Positions 56,482 through 63,991 of a stretch of DNA of 64,000 nt are shown here, in pieces. The stretch is from Gammaproteobacteria bacterium (GTDB lineage: Bacteria > Pseudomonadota > Gammaproteobacteria > GCA-001735895): positions 53,936 through 117,935 of the forward strand of contig JAJDOF010000099.1 in NCBI GenBank assembly GCA_022340305.1, given 5' to 3'. The notes under the pieces were generated by a model that made no database searches, was not told the origin of the DNA, and saw nothing but the letters and a program-made list of their open reading frames with translations. Numbering within the stretch: the stretch's first letter is position 1; each line of letters opens with the position of its first letter. The translations under genes were made by a program, and so were the position numbers.

Positions 56482-56934
56482 ATGAAAATATCCACTCGCA
56501 TCATTACCGCCGTTTTGCTCGTTGCAGCCAGTTCCAGCGCCGTTTATGCCTTTAGCAAGCACGGTGACTGGGGCATGAGCAGCGCCGAAAAAGTCGAGTT
56601 CATCAGTGAGCGGGTCACACGCAAACTCGATCTTGACGATGTGCAACGGCAGAAATTCACCGAACTGGCGGAGCTGGTCAACGACACGCTGCAGGAAGTC
56701 AAACCAGGCCGCGAACAGCGTCTCGATGAAATCACCAGCCTGTTAGAGGATCCGAGTTTCAACCAGGCGCGGGCGCTTGAACTGGTCCAGCAAAAAACTC
56801 AACTGGTGAACGAAAAAGCACCTTTGGTAATCGCTTCGCTGGCAAGTTTCCTGGACACATTATCCATCGAACAAAAGCAGCAATTACGGGAGTTCATGCA
56901 GCAGCGGCATGAACATCATCGACACCAGCATTAA
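56482..56934 (+). CDS. CpxP/Spy-family periplasmic protein
   Basis: Periplasmic envelope-stress protein of 150 residues. A signal peptide (KISTRIITAVLLVAASSSAVYA) is followed by an all-helical body of the LTxxQ type: EFISERVTRKLDLDDVQRQKF, then LSIEQKQQLREFMQQ. The C-terminus is His-rich (RHEHHRHQH) and could bind copper, zinc or nickel. Homologs either chaperone unfolded proteins (Spy) or inhibit the CpxA sensor and sense metals (CpxP, CnrX-like). Being first before the response-regulator and kinase genes, with a phased repeat array in front, it is probably the feedback or sensing component of that system. Confidence 0.82.
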   Translation: MKISTRIITAVLLVAASSSAVYAFSKHGDWGMSSAEKVEFISERVTRKLDLDDVQRQKFTELAELVNDTLQEVKPGREQRLDEITSLLEDPSFNQARALELVQQKTQLVNEKAPLVIASLASFLDTLSIEQKQQLREFMQQRHEHHRHQH

Positions 56935-56979
56935 AGTCCCTTTCGACTTCGGCCGCTATCGCCGTAGACGTAACCTCCC

Positions 56980-57012
56980 ACAGCGCGGCTTCTCATGCAG
57001 AAGCCGCGCTGT
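56980..57012 (+). other. Intercistronic hairpin between cpxP-like and cpxR-like genes
   Basis: Perfect 14-bp stem ACAGCGCGGCTTCT / AGAAGCCGCGCTGT with a five-base loop. No T-run follows. It would separate a highly expressed cpxP-like message from the regulator genes by partial termination or processing. Confidence 0.6.
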
Positions 57013-57043
57013 ACAATAGCGATATTATGGGCTGAGAAGCACG

Positions 57044-57706
57044 ATGCGGAAAATACTGCTGATTGACGACGACGAGAAACTGGCACAGCCGCTACAGCAG
57101 TATTTTGCCCGCTTCGATTTGTCGCTGCACAATGAAACCCATCCGTTATCGGCAATCGAGCGGATACAGCATGAAGCTTTCGATTTGCTCATCCTCGACG
57201 TGATGTTGCCCGAGATCGATGGTTTCGAGACCTGCAAACGCATAAGGCGCCAGAGCGATATTCCGATTATCATGTTGACGGCACGTGGCGAGGTAATGGA
57301 CCGCGTCGTCGGCCTCGAGCTGGGTGCCGATGATTACCTGCCAAAACCCTTCGACCCACGCGAGCTGGTGGCGCGGGTGCAGAATATCCTGCGCCGCAAT
57401 CAATCGGCCCAGGCAGTGATTTACCAATGGAGTGACCTGCAACTCGACATCGAGGCAAAGCAGTTACGGCGAAATGACGAAGTCGTTCCACTGACGGCTG
57501 CCGAATTCAGCCTGCTGTCGCTATTGGCGCAAAATCAGCACAGGATTCTGTCGCGCGATGAAATCATGCGCGAGTTACGTGGCATCGATGCTGATATTTT
57601 CAGTCGCGCTATCGACGTGCTGGTGAGCCGATTACGCAGCAAGCTGCAACAACCCGAGTTAATCCGCACCGTGCGGGGTCTCGGTTACCAACTGGTGCCA
57701 CGTTGA
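57044..57706 (+). CDS. cpxR: OmpR-family response regulator, CpxR-like
   Basis: Response regulator of 220 residues. Receiver domain: acidic DDDE near residue 8-11, phospho-acceptor Asp in LLILDVMLPEIDG, Thr in MLTARGE, Lys in DDYLPKPFDP. The C-terminal winged helix includes LTAAEFSLLSLLAQNQHRILSRDEIMREL and a recognition region RAIDVLVSRLRSKL, with RTVRGLGYQLV at the end. Sequence and the CpxP-like neighbour point to the Cpx envelope-stress system. The stop codon overlaps the kinase start (TGATG). The phased TTACA repeats upstream of the cpxP-like gene are its probable target. Confidence 0.87.
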   Translation: MRKILLIDDDEKLAQPLQQYFARFDLSLHNETHPLSAIERIQHEAFDLLILDVMLPEIDGFETCKRIRRQSDIPIIMLTARGEVMDRVVGLELGADDYLPKPFDPRELVARVQNILRRNQSAQAVIYQWSDLQLDIEAKQLRRNDEVVPLTAAEFSLLSLLAQNQHRILSRDEIMRELRGIDADIFSRAIDVLVSRLRSKLQQPELIRTVRGLGYQLVPR

Positions 57707-59010
57707 TGCTGGATTACCTGGCGACCAAATGGCAAAGCCTGGTATTCCGGCTGTTGTTATATTTTACGCTGTCGATACTGGCGCTTGCGGTAATACTCGC
57801 CATCAGCTTTTCGCAACGTTTGCGTCCCCATGTTCAGCAGCAGGTTCTGCCAAACATCGAGCGCTACCTGGACTACCTGATCAGCGACATCGGCAATCCA
57901 CCAGACCTGGTCGTGGCCCAACAGCTTGCCGATGACTTACCCTTCGAGATCAGGATCGAAGGGCAGGGCAGTAACTGGGCATCGAGTCCTGCGATAAAGC
58001 CGATTTCAAGCTATCGCTTCGAGGCGGCGCCGCCGCCTTACGATCATGTTCATTACAGCCATCAGCGACGTACAGAACTGCTGTTGATCAAGCGCAATGG
58101 ATTGCAGTACCTGTTCGTCGTCGAAGACAGTTTTCGACGCGGGGCGGAACGCCGTCACGGCTTGCTGTTCATCGGTCTGGCGGCCATCTTGCTGGTTTTA
58201 TACCTCGGAATCCGTAGATTATTTCGCCCGATTGCAGTGATGTCGGAGCAGGTTCGCAGAATCGGCGAGGGCGATTTACAGCAATCCGTCGAAGTGGAGA
58301 ACAAAGGGGAGTTGGGTTTGCTCGCGGCAGGGATCAATCGCATGTCGCGGCAAATAAAATCAATGCTGGAGAGCAAGTCGGGGTTGTTGCTCGCCATCAG
58401 CCATGAATTGCGTTCACCGTTGACGCGTATGCGGGTCAACCTGGAGTTACTCGATGACGACGAGCTGCGCCACAAACTGGTTGATGATACCCGCGAGATG
58501 GAAACGCTGATTGGCGCTATCCTCGAGTCGGAGAAGTTGAATTCCAGCCATGCACCGCTGTCGCTGAGCCAGGTCCAGTTGGTGGAACTGATTGAGGAGG
58601 TGGTGGCGAATCACCCGCAGCACAATCGAATCGACATGCGGCTGACGCCCATCGAGCTCGCCGTCGACGAGCTGCGTTGCAAACTCTTGCTCAAGAATCT
58701 GATTGACAATGCCCTGCAGTATTCGCGGGATCCCGAAGCGCACATAACAATCGAATTACGCAGTGAGCAGGACGCGGCAATTCTGCAGGTCGTCGACCAG
58801 GGCATCGGCATCGCAGCCGCCGACATACCGCGGTTAACCGAAGCCTTCTACCGCCCCGATAGCGCCCGCCAGCGCAACACCGGCGGTTATGGTCTTGGCC
58901 TGTATTTATGCCAGTTGATCGTCGCCGCTCATGGGGGTGTTTTACGCATCGAAAGCGAGCCCGGGAAGGGCACCCGGGTTGTTGTCAGCCTGCCTGTTGA
59001 TAATAGTTGA
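57706..59010 (+). CDS. cpxA: Sensor histidine kinase, CpxA-like
   Basis: Membrane histidine kinase of 434 residues from ATG 57706. TM1 is about residues 12-33 (VFRLLLYFTLSILALAVILAIS), a periplasmic sensor loop of about 110 residues follows, TM2 is about 150-168, then HAMP (RRLFRPIAVMSEQVRRIGEGDLQ). The phospho-acceptor His is in LLLAISHELRSPLTRMRVNLE. The ATPase domain has the N box LLKNLIDNALQYS, G1 VVDQGIGIAAAD, and G2 GGYGLGLYLCQLIVAAHGG. The periplasmic loop is where a CpxP-like inhibitor would act. Its last codons overlap the IscR-box of the next operon. Confidence 0.87.
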   Translation: MLDYLATKWQSLVFRLLLYFTLSILALAVILAISFSQRLRPHVQQQVLPNIERYLDYLISDIGNPPDLVVAQQLADDLPFEIRIEGQGSNWASSPAIKPISSYRFEAAPPPYDHVHYSHQRRTELLLIKRNGLQYLFVVEDSFRRGAERRHGLLFIGLAAILLVLYLGIRRLFRPIAVMSEQVRRIGEGDLQQSVEVENKGELGLLAAGINRMSRQIKSMLESKSGLLLAISHELRSPLTRMRVNLELLDDDELRHKLVDDTREMETLIGAILESEKLNSSHAPLSLSQVQLVELIEEVVANHPQHNRIDMRLTPIELAVDELRCKLLLKNLIDNALQYSRDPEAHITIELRSEQDAAILQVVDQGIGIAAADIPRLTEAFYRPDSARQRNTGGYGLGLYLCQLIVAAHGGVLRIESEPGKGTRVVVSLPVDNS

Positions 59011-59034
59011 CCATTTTAGTCAGGATTGTATACT
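59003..59034 (+). promoter_or_regulatory. isc operon promoter with type-1 IscR box
   Basis: A sigma-70 promoter TTGACC (59007-59012), 16 bp, TATACT (59029-59034) lies 30 bases before iscR. Over its -35, at 59003-59027, is a sequence matching 22 of 25 positions of the E. coli type-1 IscR consensus as I remember it (ATA-S-YY-GAC-TRWWWYA-GTC-RR-S-TAT). This implies autoregulation by IscR. The box overlaps the end of the cpxA-like gene. Confidence 0.75.
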
Positions 59035-59063: not shown

Positions 59064-59522
59064 ATGCGATTGTCCACTAAAAGCCGATACGCGGTCACTT
59101 CACTGCTCGATCTTGTCATGCACTCGGATCAGGGCCCGGTTTCGCTTGCCGATATTTCGGTTCGGCAAGGAATCTCGTTGTCTTATCTGGAGCAACTGTT
59201 TGCCAAGATGCGCCGTAACAAGCTGGTGGTGAGCACGCGTGGACCCGGTGGCGGCTATAGCCTGGGCAGTTCACCCGATCAGGTCTGTATCGCCGACGTG
59301 ATCAACGCGGTGGATGAGGTCATGCAGATAGCAGACAAGGATGTTAACAATGGCCCGGTCGACTATGAGCCCTGCCTCACCGAGCAGTTATGGGAAGAGC
59401 TGAGTGCCGAGATCGAACTTTATCTGACCACCATCTCGCTTGCCGACATGATGCAGAACGACGAAGTCCGGGAACTTTCCCGGGTTCATGATTTACGCCA
59501 GAATCACTCCGGTTTACAGTAG
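59064..59522 (+). CDS. iscR: Rrf2-family regulator IscR, lacking most Fe-S ligands
   Basis: Regulator of iron-sulfur cluster genes, 152 residues. The DNA-binding part is nearly that of E. coli IscR (RQGISLSYLEQLFAKMRRNK, RGPGGGYSLG), and residue numbers correspond without gaps. The cluster ligands do not: C92 is Lys, C98 is Pro, H107 is Glu, and only C104 (in YEPCLTEQLWEEL) remains. A [2Fe-2S] cluster of the E. coli type is therefore unlikely; the protein may work as permanent apo-IscR or bind a cluster differently. The C-terminus is about ten residues shorter than in E. coli. It heads the isc operon with a type-1 IscR box in its promoter; iscS begins five bases later. Confidence 0.93.
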   Translation: MRLSTKSRYAVTSLLDLVMHSDQGPVSLADISVRQGISLSYLEQLFAKMRRNKLVVSTRGPGGGYSLGSSPDQVCIADVINAVDEVMQIADKDVNNGPVDYEPCLTEQLWEELSAEIELYLTTISLADMMQNDEVRELSRVHDLRQNHSGLQ

Positions 59523-59526
59523 CAAA

Positions 59527-60675
59527 ATGCCGGTATATCTCGATCACAATGCAACCTCGCCGATGCACCCGGAAGTGGTGGAAGCGATGATGCCGTTTCT
59601 GCAGCATCCTCCCGCTAATCCTTCGAGCCTGCACAGTAACGGCCGGATGGCGCGTTCCGCGGTGGAAACGGCGCGAGACCAGGTGGCAGGTTTGTTGCAT
59701 TGTCCCGCTGCCGACGTGGTGTTTACCTCCGGCGGTACCGAGGCCAACAACCTGTTGCTGAAAGGCTACGTGGATCGCCACGATCCCAGGCCCGTGGTTA
59801 GCAGCGAGATCGAGCATCCCAGTGTTTTGCAGCCGCTGCAGCAATTGCAGGCCGAAGGTTTCGACGTAAGGCTGCTGAAATCTGACCCCAGCGGACAGAT
59901 CGATCTGCCCGCTGCGAAAGCATTGCTGGCCGTAGCGAACCCCCAGCTGCTGTCGATCATTTACGCGAATAATGAGACCGGGGTCATTCAACCCGTGGAA
60001 GCAATCGCCACTATGGTCGATCGCGATGCCTGCCTGCTGCACAGCGATGCTACGCAGGCCGTCGGCAAGCTTGATATTGATTTGTCGCAACTGGATCTTG
60101 ACGCTATCAGTTTTTCGGCCCACAAGTTGCGCGGGCCCCAGGGAGTTGGCGCCCTGGTGGTCAAGCGCAAGCCCCGCAACCTGCTGATCAGTGGTGGAGA
60201 CCAGGAAAACCGGCGGCGCGGCGGTACCGAAAATGTTGTCGGTATTGTCGGCCTGGGCAAGGCGGCCGAACTCGCCGGCCTTGAAATGGATCAACGCCGG
60301 CACTATCTCGCTCAATTACGGGACGTATTTGAAGCAAGGCTCGCGAGCATACCGGGTAGCGTTGTTTTTGGACAGCAGTCGCCGCGACTACCCAACACGA
60401 CATACTTCGCGCTGCCTTACTATCACGGCGAAACGCTGTTGATGGAACTGGATCGTGCAGGTTTCGCGCTTTCCAGCGGCTCGGCCTGCCACAGCATGGT
60501 CACCGAACCGAGTCATGTGTTAACAGCGATGGCAATCGACGACAGTCTTGCCCTGAATGCGATCCGGGTGAGTTTTGGTATGAGTAACAGTTTGCAGGAT
60601 GTTGAAGCACTGTTCACAAAACTTCAGGATCTGGTAAACAAGCTGCCTGCGGTTATGCGTCAGGCGGCGGGATAA
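59527..60675 (+). CDS. iscS: Cysteine desulfurase, IscS/NifS group I, short C-terminus
   Basis: PLP enzyme, 382 residues from ATG 59527 ([20 protein letters not shown]), that takes sulfur from L-cysteine as persulfide. The track start lies inside iscR. PLP motifs are [30 protein letters not shown] and the lysine in [15 protein letters not shown]. The persulfide Cys, near residue 321, is on the [17 protein letters not shown] loop. Only 61 residues follow it, against 76 in E. coli IscS, so the C-terminal extension that docks IscU in E. coli is missing. The sequence is nearer NifS-like enzymes than enterobacterial IscS (404 residues). I keep the iscS symbol for its operon position. Confidence 0.88.
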
Positions 60676-60686
60676 TAGAGGCAGTC

Positions 60687-61010
60687 ATGGGAATTCAACT
60701 TAGCGATACAGCCGCAACACGCGTGCAGCATTTTCTCGACAACCGCGGCAAGGGCATCGGCCTGCGGCTGGGCGTAAAAACGACGGGTTGTTCGGGTCTT
60801 GCCTACGTCATTGAATTTGTCGACGAGTTGCGCGAAGACGATGAAGTTTTCGAGACCAAGGGCGTCAAGGTAGTGGTGGACAGGAAAAGCCTGGTGTTCC
60901 TCGATGGTACCGAGGTCGATTTTGCCAAGGCCGGGCTCAACGAGGGATTTCAATTCAAAAATCCTAACGCCAAGGATGCCTGTGGTTGCGGCGAGAGCTT
61001 CACTGTCTGA
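60687..61010 (+). CDS. iscA: A-type iron-sulfur carrier IscA
   Basis: A-type carrier that receives clusters or iron and passes them to target proteins. It has 107 residues, exactly E. coli IscA length, and nearly the same sequence: [52 protein letters not shown]. The three ligand cysteines are in GCSGLAY and the terminal DACGCGESF. It follows iscS by 11 bases. In enterobacteria the iscU gene lies here between iscS and iscA; no coding space remains for it. ATG is preceded by AGAGGC. Confidence 0.96.
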
Positions 61011-61025
61011 AGTATTCAACCTTAG

Positions 61026-61565
61026 ATGCAGTCCCCCGATCTCAATCAAAACTACTTTGAATTGTTTGGCTTGCCGGCAGCCTTCGCGCTCGATCGCGCC
61101 CGGTTGCTGGCGGCACAGCAACGTCTGCAATCGAGCTATCATCCCGATCGTCACGTGAATGATAACGATCGGGACAGACGGTTGTCGGTGCAGGTTGCAT
61201 CCTGGATCAATCAGGCCTACGAGACCCTGCAGGACCCGGTTAAGCGTTCCCGCTATTTGCTGGAAATCAGCGGTGCCGATATCCCTGATGATTCGACCAC
61301 GACCGCAGATACCGAGTTTTTAATGGAGCAGATAGAGTTGCGCGAAGCAGTTGAGGCTTGCCGTGAGGCAACGGATGGACTGGAGCAATGTCAGCAAATT
61401 GAAAATCGGCTGACCCAGCGCGCTGGCGAGCTCGCCGACGAATTTGTCGACCGCTTCGAGGCCGATGACCTCGCTGGCGCCGTTGTACTGAGCCGCAAAA
61501 TGCAATTCATTCAGCGCATACAACAGCAGCTGGATGAGCTTCAGTTCGAGCTCGAGGGACTGTAG
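61026..61565 (+). CDS. hscB: J-domain co-chaperone HscB
   Basis: Co-chaperone of HscA, 179 residues. The N-terminal J-domain (NYFELFGLPAAFALDRARL ... SYHPDRHVND) has the HPD motif that stimulates the Hsp70 ATPase. The C-terminal three-helix part, from about residue 85 (EFLMEQIELREAVEACRE), is the region that binds IscU in E. coli. ELxELREAVE-like sequence is kept here even though iscU is absent from the operon. It is 15 bases after iscA and abuts hscA. The SD is weak. Confidence 0.94.
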   Translation: MQSPDLNQNYFELFGLPAAFALDRARLLAAQQRLQSSYHPDRHVNDNDRDRRLSVQVASWINQAYETLQDPVKRSRYLLEISGADIPDDSTTTADTEFLMEQIELREAVEACREATDGLEQCQQIENRLTQRAGELADEFVDRFEADDLAGAVVLSRKMQFIQRIQQQLDELQFELEGL

Positions 61566-63437
61566 ATGGCATTGTTGCAGATATCCGAACCGGGCCAGTC
61601 GACTGCCCCGCACCAACACCGCTTTGCGGTCGGTATCGACCTGGGTACCACTAATTCCCTGGCGGCGACTGTGCGCAGTGGCGAAGCCGTTTGCCTCGCG
61701 GACGAGCAGGGCCGCAAATTATTGCCCTCGGTGGTTCATTTCGCTGCAGGCGATAAATTGCTGGGTTATGAAGCCCTCGCCATGCAGGCCAACGACCCGC
61801 TGAATACGATTGCATCGATTAAACGTTTGATGGGGCGCGCCAGTGAAGATGTTTCGCGACTCGGCAATACCTTGCCCTATGAAACTGTTATCCCGGCCGG
61901 GAGCAAGGTCCCGCGTATCCGTACCCGCAGCGGTGATTTCAGTGCCGTGGAAATTTCGGCCGAAATTCTAAGGGTACTCGCGCAGCGGGCGGCACAAAGC
62001 GTCGGTGACGAGCTGGACGGCGTAGTCATCACGGTCCCGGCTTATTTCGATGACGCGCAACGCCAGGCGACGCGCGATGCCGCGACACTCGCCGGGCTGA
62101 AGCTCTATCGCTTGCTCAATGAACCGACCGCAGCCGCCGTCGCCTACGGGCTGGATCAAAACAACGATGGCACGGTCGCAGTTTATGATCTCGGCGGTGG
62201 CACCTTCGATATCTCGGTATTGCGACTCAACAAGGGCGTTTTCGAGGTTCTGGCAACGGGTGGAGATTCATCGCTCGGTGGTGACGATATGGATCATGCC
62301 ATCGGTGAATGGATAATATCCGCAGCCGGCTTTGTCGAAATCGATGCGCGTCTTGCACGCCGAATCTTAATCGCGGCACGCAAGGCCAAGGAATCCCTGA
62401 CCGAGGCCGAATCCGCAGAGATTTCAATCGCTGACCGGCAACATAATTGGTCAGGAACACTAATCAGGAGTAATTTCGAAGGGCTGGTCAAAGGCCTGCT
62501 GACACGAACCCTGACAGCCTGTCGTCGCACGCTGCGCGATGCCGGGCTCAAGGCGACGGATATCGATGAAGTCATCATGGTCGGTGGCTCCACCCGGGTA
62601 CCGCTGGTACAGTCGATGGTGGGCGAGCTGTTTGCTCGCAAACCGATGTGTGATCTTGACCCCGATGAGGTTGTCGCGCTCGGTGCTGCAATCCAGGCAG
62701 ATGTCCTGGCGGGGAACAAACCCGATAGCGAGATGTTGCTGCTGGATGTGCTGCCACTGTCGCTCGGCATCGAAACCATGGGCGGTCTGAGTGAAAAAAT
62801 CATTACCCGCAACACGGCCATTCCGGTGTCGCGCGCACAGGAATTCACCACCTTCAAGGATGGCCAGACGGCGATGTCGATTCACGTGGTGCAGGGTGAG
62901 CGTGAGCTGGTTTCCGATTGTCGTTCGCTGGCCCGCTTCGAGTTGCGCGGATTTCCGCCAATGACCGCCGGCGCCGCTCGCATCCGGGTGACCTACCAGG
63001 TCGATGCGGATGGCTTGATGTCGGTAACTGCAGAGGAAGCAACCAGCGGTATTGCTGCCGAAATTGTAGTCAAACCATCTTATGGCCTGACCGATGGCGA
63101 AATCGAGTCGATGCTGCGTGCTTCGATGGAACATGCCCGGGACGACATCGAGTTGCGCATGCACAAAGAGCAACAGGTCGAGGCGAGCCGGGTCATCGAG
63201 GCGATTGATGCGGCGCTGGTGAATGACGGCGAACAGCTGTTGAACCCGAAGGAACGTAAACTGATTGTCGAGCATCGCGATGCCCTGGCGACAGCGCTCG
63301 AGTCTGCCACGACCGAGGAGCTGAAACGTTTGATTCGAGCAGTGGAACAGGCGAGCGAATTTTACGTGGCGCGACGAATGAATCAAAGTGTCCGGCAGGC
63401 ACTTACCGGTAAACAAATTGACGAGGTTGATGTTTGA
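61566..63437 (+). CDS. hscA: Hsp70-type chaperone HscA
   Basis: Specialised Hsp70 for iron-sulfur biogenesis, 623 residues (E. coli 616). The ATPase domain carries [51 protein letters not shown], and [11 protein letters not shown]. The substrate-binding domain begins after the linker [17 protein letters not shown], and the lid is helical to the end. In E. coli its only good client is IscU, through an LPPVK motif. Here it must use an IscU encoded elsewhere or another client. It starts directly after the hscB stop and overlaps fdx by one base. Confidence 0.95.
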
Positions 63438-63775
63438 TGACGAGGCTGACTATTTTGCCCCACGATGAAATCTGTCCGCAGGGAGCCGTGATCGAAGTCG
63501 AACCCGGGGTTAGTCTGTGCGATGCGATGCTCAGCAACGGTATCGAGATCGAACACGCCTGTGAGAAGTCCTGTGCCTGTACCACCTGCCACGTATATGT
63601 GCGCCAGGGACTGGATTCACTTGAAGAAGCGACTGACGACGAAGATGATTACCTCGATAAAGCCTGGGGCCTGGACATGGATTCGCGGCTCAGCTGTCAG
63701 GCTATCGTTGCCGACGAACCGCTCACCATCGAAATCCCCCGGTACACGATTAACATGGTTTCAGAAAACCACTAG
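63437..63775 (+). CDS. fdx: Adrenodoxin-type [2Fe-2S] ferredoxin
   Basis: Electron carrier for cluster assembly, 112 residues from ATG 63437 (the track TTG is one codon earlier). The ligands are visible as C-x5-C-x2-C in EHACEKSCACTTCHVYV, with the fourth Cys in SRLSCQAIVADEPL. The acidic stretch EEATDDEDDYLDKAWGLD is typical of ISC ferredoxins and contacts IscS. It donates electrons for persulfide reduction during assembly. It overlaps hscA at TGATG and is followed by iscX after 15 bases. Confidence 0.95.
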   Translation: MTRLTILPHDEICPQGAVIEVEPGVSLCDAMLSNGIEIEHACEKSCACTTCHVYVRQGLDSLEEATDDEDDYLDKAWGLDMDSRLSCQAIVADEPLTIEIPRYTINMVSENH

Positions 63776-63790
63776 CAGGAGGAACAACCT

Positions 63791-63991
63791 ATGAGCCTGA
63801 AATGGACCGATACCCTGGACATTGCCATCGAGTTGGCGGAGCGACACGATGATGTAGACCCGCAATTCGTCCGCTTCACGGATCTGCATGCCTGGGTCTG
63901 TGCACTCGACGACTTCGACGACGCCCCCGAGCACTCCAACGAAAAGATTCTGGAAGCCATTCAGATGGCCTGGATTGACGAAGCCGACTGA
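63791..63991 (+). CDS. iscX: Iron-sulfur assembly accessory protein IscX
   Basis: Small acidic protein of 66 residues, the last gene of the isc operon. It starts MSLKWTDTLDIAIELAERHDD and contains VRFTDLHAWVCALDDFDD and EKILEAIQMAWIDE, all IscX hallmarks. IscX binds iron and the IscS active-site region, tuning desulfurase activity. A very strong SD, AGGAGGAAC, precedes the ATG. Nine bases remain to the window end, so whether the operon continues is not seen. Confidence 0.95.
   Translation: MSLKWTDTLDIAIELAERHDDVDPQFVRFTDLHAWVCALDDFDDAPEHSNEKILEAIQMAWIDEAD

Follow-up and report, generated by a model that had tools for sequence, protein, structure and literature searches.

An IscR paralog without three of the four [2Fe-2S] ligands heads one of two isc operons and may share their control with a canonical IscR

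IscR is the textbook example of a regulator whose DNA-binding specificity is switched by an iron–sulfur cluster. The window studied here, by which we mean the whole stretch of 64,000 nucleotides that was analysed, carries an isc operon headed by an IscR-like gene whose product has kept one of the four [2Fe-2S] ligands. A preliminary description of this DNA reported the loss of the other three, regarded it as substitution in place, and pointed to a good type-1 IscR box in front of the operon. How can a protein of this kind serve such a box? In Pseudomonas aeruginosa, the exchanges C92A, C98A, C104A, and H107A each abolish the binding of IscR to the isc promoter in vitro (PMC6599224), and in E. 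coli, apo-IscR and ligand mutants do not bind type-1 isc promoters (PMC12594620). In this paper, the window protein, encoded by iscR', is called IscRb, the canonical IscR encoded elsewhere in the same genome is called IscRa, and the window operon is called operon B. The features of operon B are collected in Table 1.

The codons of iscR' confirmed that three ligands are lost and Cys104 is kept (K92, P98, C104, E107), and the alignment of the window ORF with E. coli IscR ran without a gap over residues 1–140, in agreement with substitution rather than insertion or deletion. By sequence, the best PDB match of IscRb was E. coli IscR (4hf1, E = 1e-37). The AlphaFold2 model of IscRb had the IscR fold, with 4hf1, 4hf2, 4chu, and 4hf0 as the nearest PDB entries found by Foldseek. 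The Rrf2 winged-helix domain spans the entire protein, and the superfamily profiles were matched above their cut-offs (PF02082, 117.6 bits against 30; TIGR00738, 128.4 bits against 73.3). The TIGR02010 equivalog gave 164.1 bits against a cut-off of 207.55 bits, and the Cys3His IscRa of the same genome was also below it (199.7 bits), so that this cut-off does not discriminate between the two proteins of the window's genome. Like IscR, IscRb is encoded at the head of an isc operon whose promoter has a type-1 box, and it lacks the set Cys92/Cys98/Cys104/His107 that defines a functional [2Fe-2S] IscR. Both its sequence and its fold make IscRb a homologue of the Rrf2/IscR proteins, and it departs from functional IscR in this ligand set.

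Table 1. Promoter elements, ligand codons, and genes of operon B, with positions counted from the first nucleotide of the window.
Feature	Position	Strand	Basis
Type-1 IscR box of operon B, ATAGTTGACCATTTTAGTCAGGATT	59003..59027	+	consensus match and conservation
-35 element TTGACC, within the box, 100% conserved	59007..59012	+	consensus-only assignment
-10 element TATACT, 100% conserved, 16 bp spacing from -35	59029..59034	+	consensus-only assignment
iscR' (IscRb), Rrf2/IscR paralog, 152 aa, without three of four [2Fe-2S] ligands	59064..59522	+	ORF and alignment
Codon 92, AAG, Lys replacing ligand Cys92; Lys or Arg in 37/37 orthologues	59337..59339	+	
Codon 98, CCG, Pro replacing ligand Cys98; variable (S/A/P/G/T) among orthologues	59355..59357	+	
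Codon 104, TGC, Cys104 kept, invariant; immediately N-terminal to predicted dimerisation helix 105-121	59373..59375	+	
Codon 107, GAG, Glu replacing ligand His107; invariant among orthologues	59382..59384	+	
NifS/IscS-like cysteine desulfurase, under the IscS and NifS equivalog cut-offs	59527..60675	+	profile scores
iscA	60687..61010	+	TIGR02011
hscB	61026..61565	+	TIGR00714
hscA	61566..63437	+	TIGR01991
fdx (ISC ferredoxin)	63437..63775	+	TIGR02007
iscX	63791..63991	+	TIGR03412

Operon B has the order iscR'–nifS-like–iscA–hscB–hscA–fdx–iscX, and downstream of iscR' (59527–63991) the NifS-like desulfurase stands in place of the standard IscS. In two relatives (G012, locus L030, and G023, locus L046), the nifS-like gene is cleanly missing and iscR'–iscA–hscB–hscA–fdx remains. 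The iscU gene is absent from the window operon, and the only IscU found in the genome lies in the IscRa operon on another contig. Between trmJ and iscR' there are genes for a CpxP-like small protein, a response regulator of the OmpR type, and a histidine kinase (56482–59010). Many relatives keep this set next to operon B, and the 3' end of the histidine kinase gene extends into the type-1 box.

We rejected the assumption that the genome holds a single IscR. At a separate locus of the window's genome, a draft that is 86% complete, a canonical IscR with Cys92, Cys98, Cys104, and His107 was found (contig labelled C75), followed by a full iscS and then iscU. Among 41 genomes of the order, IscRb was present in 37, IscRa in 35, and both in 32; most genomes of the order are drafts, and those missing IscRa or IscRb are drafts that are mostly fragmented or incomplete. 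The canonical IscU sits with IscRa wherever it was mapped and never in operon B, and the split architecture is present in every sampled genome of the order. The isc system of this lineage comprises two operons, one for the scaffold (iscSU) and one for chaperones and carriers (iscA–hscBA–fdx), each with its own IscR at the head. The paradox drawn in the preliminary description between lost ligands and a type-1 box presupposed one IscR and cannot stand as argued, since a canonical IscRa with a box of the same type is encoded in the same genome. It largely dissolves because a canonical [2Fe-2S]-IscR can act on the operon B box in trans. IscRa is the expected cluster-dependent repressor, because single ligand mutants lose isc promoter binding (PMC6599224). 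Binding of a cluster-free IscRb homodimer to the box is not the default expectation, because three ligands are lost and Glu43, which accounts for the exclusion of apo-IscR from type-1 sites (PMC5411485; PMC3899308), is retained.

The box itself is as good as first described. It matched 22 of 25 positions of the published consensus, and the maximum in 200 shuffles of the upstream sequence was 18. The 37 operon B promoters have the sequence AATA[GC]TTGACCAxxtTaGTCaGgaTTGTATACT in common, and their mean column identity rises from 0.60 and 0.54 in the flanks to 0.95 in the box and 1.00 in GTATACT. The promoters of operon A, the IscRa operon, carry the near-palindromic ATTCCTGACTaaatTAGTCaGGAAT, which scored above shuffles in most genomes. 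We searched eight genomes for one pattern fitting the boxes of both operons and allowed at most two mismatches; in the window's genome, this pattern matched exactly at the two isc promoters only. Relatives in the other two genera have a second box-like sequence just upstream of the operon B box. The second genus (L049, L050, L051, L052, and L056) shows two tandem type-1 boxes before operon B, and the window's genus shows one.

The alignment of IscR proteins from related genomes, which had been proposed as a check, gave [KR]-x-C-E at the ligand positions in all 37 IscRb rows, where x is a small residue or Pro, and CCCH in all 21 full-length IscRa rows. The genomes with IscRb span three genera, and the Olavius algarvensis Gamma 3 endosymbiont is among the relatives. 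A sequencing or assembly error as the source of the ligand loss was rejected, because the same pattern occurs in 37 genomes. The median dN/dS of IscRb was 0.022 in the DNA-binding domain, 0.024 in residues 104–130, and 0.19 in the loop 85–103, and that of the IscRa loop 85–103 was 0.008; these values are rough, with dS near saturation. Judged from these ratios, the DNA-binding domain of IscRb is under strong purifying selection, and IscRb is very probably functional, because selection is strong in both functional domains and the gene heads one of the two isc operons. That IscRb is a decaying duplicate without remaining function is scarcely credible. In favour of decay, its ligands were lost while a functional paralog exists, and ligand-less IscR copies occur sporadically in other gammaproteobacteria. 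Against decay, the 37 genomes of the three genera retain IscRb, both of its functional domains have a dN/dS of about 0.02, and the gene persists in relatives that have lost the neighbouring nifS-like gene. Pseudogene decay was rejected by the dN/dS values.

Which sites could such a protein bind? The DNA-contact residues Ser40, Glu43, Gln44, and Arg59 of the recognition helix and wing are invariant in IscRa and IscRb. By the logic of E. coli, a ligand-less IscR with Glu43 binds type-2 and not type-1 sites, and IscRb might be a permanently apo-like protein dedicated to type-2 sites elsewhere, with the type-1 box of operon B left to IscRa alone. The SUF system is the main type-2 target in E. coli. 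In the order, SUF genes were found in 4 of the 41 genomes and not in the other 37, so most of these genomes lack the SUF target that apo-IscR usually has, and we consider a dedicated type-2 role fairly unlikely. IscRb could regulate genes outside the two isc operons through type-2 or other sites. Because the boxes are near-exclusive to the two isc promoters, the DNA-binding domain is intact, and SUF is generally absent, these two promoters are the likeliest place of IscRb action.

The replaced ligands may have a structural meaning of their own. In E. coli IscR, positions 92 and 107 bind the same cluster and hence lie close together. In IscRb, position 92 is always basic although the surrounding loop is relaxed, and it is accompanied by Glu107 in 37/37 orthologues. 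A Lys/Arg92–Glu107 staple might replace the cluster and close the loop, so that an IscRb homodimer would bind the type-1 boxes and give iron-independent basal repression; the conserved box and DNA-contact residues would fit. The AlphaFold2 models, however, gave no ordered loop: residues 90–97 of IscRb were below pLDDT 50, and the mean over residues 91–100 was 50 in IscRb and only slightly better, 61, in the canonical IscRa control, a low confidence at which the models are mute on a contact between Lys92 and Glu107. In addition, the staple would have to overcome the retained Glu43, which blocks apo-IscR at type-1 sites, and position 92 could equally touch the DNA backbone, as was proposed for Lys95 of E. 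coli IscR (PMC5411485). We regard the staple as quite unlikely. The broader proposal that IscRb is a natural cluster-independent type-1 IscR, either through the Lys/Arg92–Glu107 pair as a structural substitute for the cluster or by pairing with [2Fe-2S]-IscRa in asymmetric heterodimers that fit the asymmetry of the operon B box, is conceivable but doubtful. On this proposal, the lineage would have divided Fe–S sensing and repression between two IscR proteins.

The retained ligand deserves the same attention. Cys104 is the only invariant Cys of IscRb, it stands directly after an invariant Glu-Pro, and in the AlphaFold2 model the helix 105–121 begins right after it. In the monothiol repressors SifR and YwnA, the one conserved Cys caps the same dimerisation helix at its N-terminus (PMC9218516), and Cys104 of IscRb matches this position. 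Like Cys102 of SifR, Cys104 might react with electrophiles, oxidants, or persulfide and release the DNA. Such a sensor would be compatible with a co-regulator acting beside IscRa and would name its signal, but the whole segment 104–110 is conserved, EPCLT is also found in some canonical IscR proteins, so that Cys104 may be merely ancestral, and IscRb is not close to SifR in sequence. This role seems rather improbable to us.

An unusual cluster must also be weighed. In Rhodobacter sphaeroides, a cluster can be reconstituted on the IscR, whose only Cys is Cys142, and repression is iron-dependent (PMC4618611). By analogy with that protein, IscRb, which retains Cys104 and an acidic residue at the His107 position, may still bind an Fe–S cluster through unusual ligands. 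The R. sphaeroides Cys, however, lies at a different, non-canonical position. Moreover, one lost ligand already abolishes promoter binding in vitro in P. aeruginosa (PMC6599224), a complete sensor is available in trans, and constraint on the IscRb loop is relaxed; the retention of a cluster is very unlikely. A cluster held by Cys75 together with Cys104 had been named as an example, and this candidate was weakened, since C75 is confined to the window's genus and missing from the two others, whereas C104 is invariant.

The position of operon B gives a hint of its origin. It is flanked by trmJ, which also flanks the canonical iscR in many other gammaproteobacteria, and by this shared neighbour operon B is seen to occupy the ancestral isc site. 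Next to IscRa lies a different conserved gene, and two genomes of another family (f39) have a relative of that gene beside iscR. In one of these two genomes (G204), the IscR at the ancestral site is ligand-less too (L190). This suggests that once iscR is also present at another place, the copy at the old site is free to lose its ligands. In the tree, IscRa and IscRb each formed one clade on a long branch, without support for placing one relative to the other.

When one genome of each GTDB species was scanned for DNA encoding PCLTEQLW, IscR came from this gammaproteobacterial lineage only, the other matches not being IscR, and all 26 closest IscR proteins outside the order retain CCCH. We surveyed ligand loss outside the order in 20 further genomes without the standard motif spacing. 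The survey returned the IscR of G204 (L190/L210, G204:C59:832-1272), which has a shortened loop with only C104 left and adjoins iscA. It belongs to another gammaproteobacterial family, has Ser at 107, and lies downstream of trmJ and a serine acetyltransferase-like gene; this ligand-less IscR beside iscA is a second case of the same kind as IscRb. One other genome of the survey had two ligand-less IscR copies (L207 and L209), and single ligand changes appeared as CYCH, CCCK, and CCCW. Two IscR copies of one genome have none of the four ligands (L212, G390:C3, 155-604 and 9864-10304), the first beside iscU, and this genome has a canonical IscR on another contig (L213). At the locus equivalent to that of IscRa in G407 (L216, 1501-1980), the IscR has Arg for Cys92 and keeps Cys98, Cys104, and His107, and no iscS or iscU was recognised directly downstream. 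Our searches of the open-access literature yielded no account of a ligand-less paralog accompanying a canonical IscR.

Of the roles considered, we hold it most likely that IscRb co-regulates the two isc operons without a cluster, as a partner or competitor of IscRa. More specifically, it seems somewhat better than an even prospect that IscRb is a cluster-free paralog peculiar to this lineage, which sits at the ancestral isc locus and acts with canonical IscRa on both operons. In this co-regulation, IscRa would sense the Fe–S status and repress both operons through their type-1 boxes. IscRb, without the usual [2Fe-2S] sensing, would use these boxes too, independently of a cluster and either together with IscRa or in competition with it, possibly in an IscRa/IscRb heterodimer or by occupying one half-site. 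The effect might be to set the basal level of operon B or to damp its response, and a possible thiol switch is Cys104, which is invariant and caps the dimerisation helix at its N-terminus. One sensor-repressor of the cell appears to have become two, a copy that senses and a copy without a cluster, with DNA switches in common. A naturally cluster-free IscR whose DNA-contact residues are intact, held by strong selection beside a normal copy and in front of boxes of the same near-exclusive type, would be a natural experiment on the role of the cluster in type-1 binding.

Several known systems resemble IscRb in part. The canonical IscR of E. coli and P. aeruginosa shares with IscRb its fold (4hf0, 4hf1), about 48% identity, identical recognition helix and wing contacts, and the position at the head of an isc operon with a type-1 box overlapping the promoter. 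In contrast, IscRb has three of the four ligands replaced, a full canonical copy alongside, and an operon without iscU or the standard iscS. The single-Cys IscR of Rhodobacteraceae, of which the D. shibae protein has a structure (PDB 7zpn), also heads Fe–S assembly genes, lacks Cys3His, and has one Cys in its C-terminal part (PMC4618611). In R. sphaeroides, this Cys is at the new position 142 and the protein recognises the Iron-Rhodo-box, whereas IscRb has Cys104 of the classical site, a type-1 box, and, in the window protein, no Cys in the tail. IscRb lies outside the Rhodobacteraceae class, which is defined by a single C-terminal Cys at 142, since its invariant Cys is 104. A canonical copy accompanies IscRb, and no second canonical IscR is described for the Rhodobacteraceae case in the part of the source covered (PMC4618611). 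SifR and YwnA resemble IscRb in that their Cys follows a Pro-containing motif (PMC9218516), but the motif is HxxPNPxC in these repressors and [YF]EPC in IscRb, they are not orthologous to it, and their regulon is catechol/quinone and iron uptake. The laboratory IscR mutants C92A, 3CA, and H107A (PMC6599224, PMC12594620) are, as we expect of IscRb, cluster-free with an intact DNA-binding domain; these mutants are artificial and do not bind type-1 isc promoters, whereas IscRb has a conserved Lys or Arg at 92 and Glu at 107 in place of alanine.
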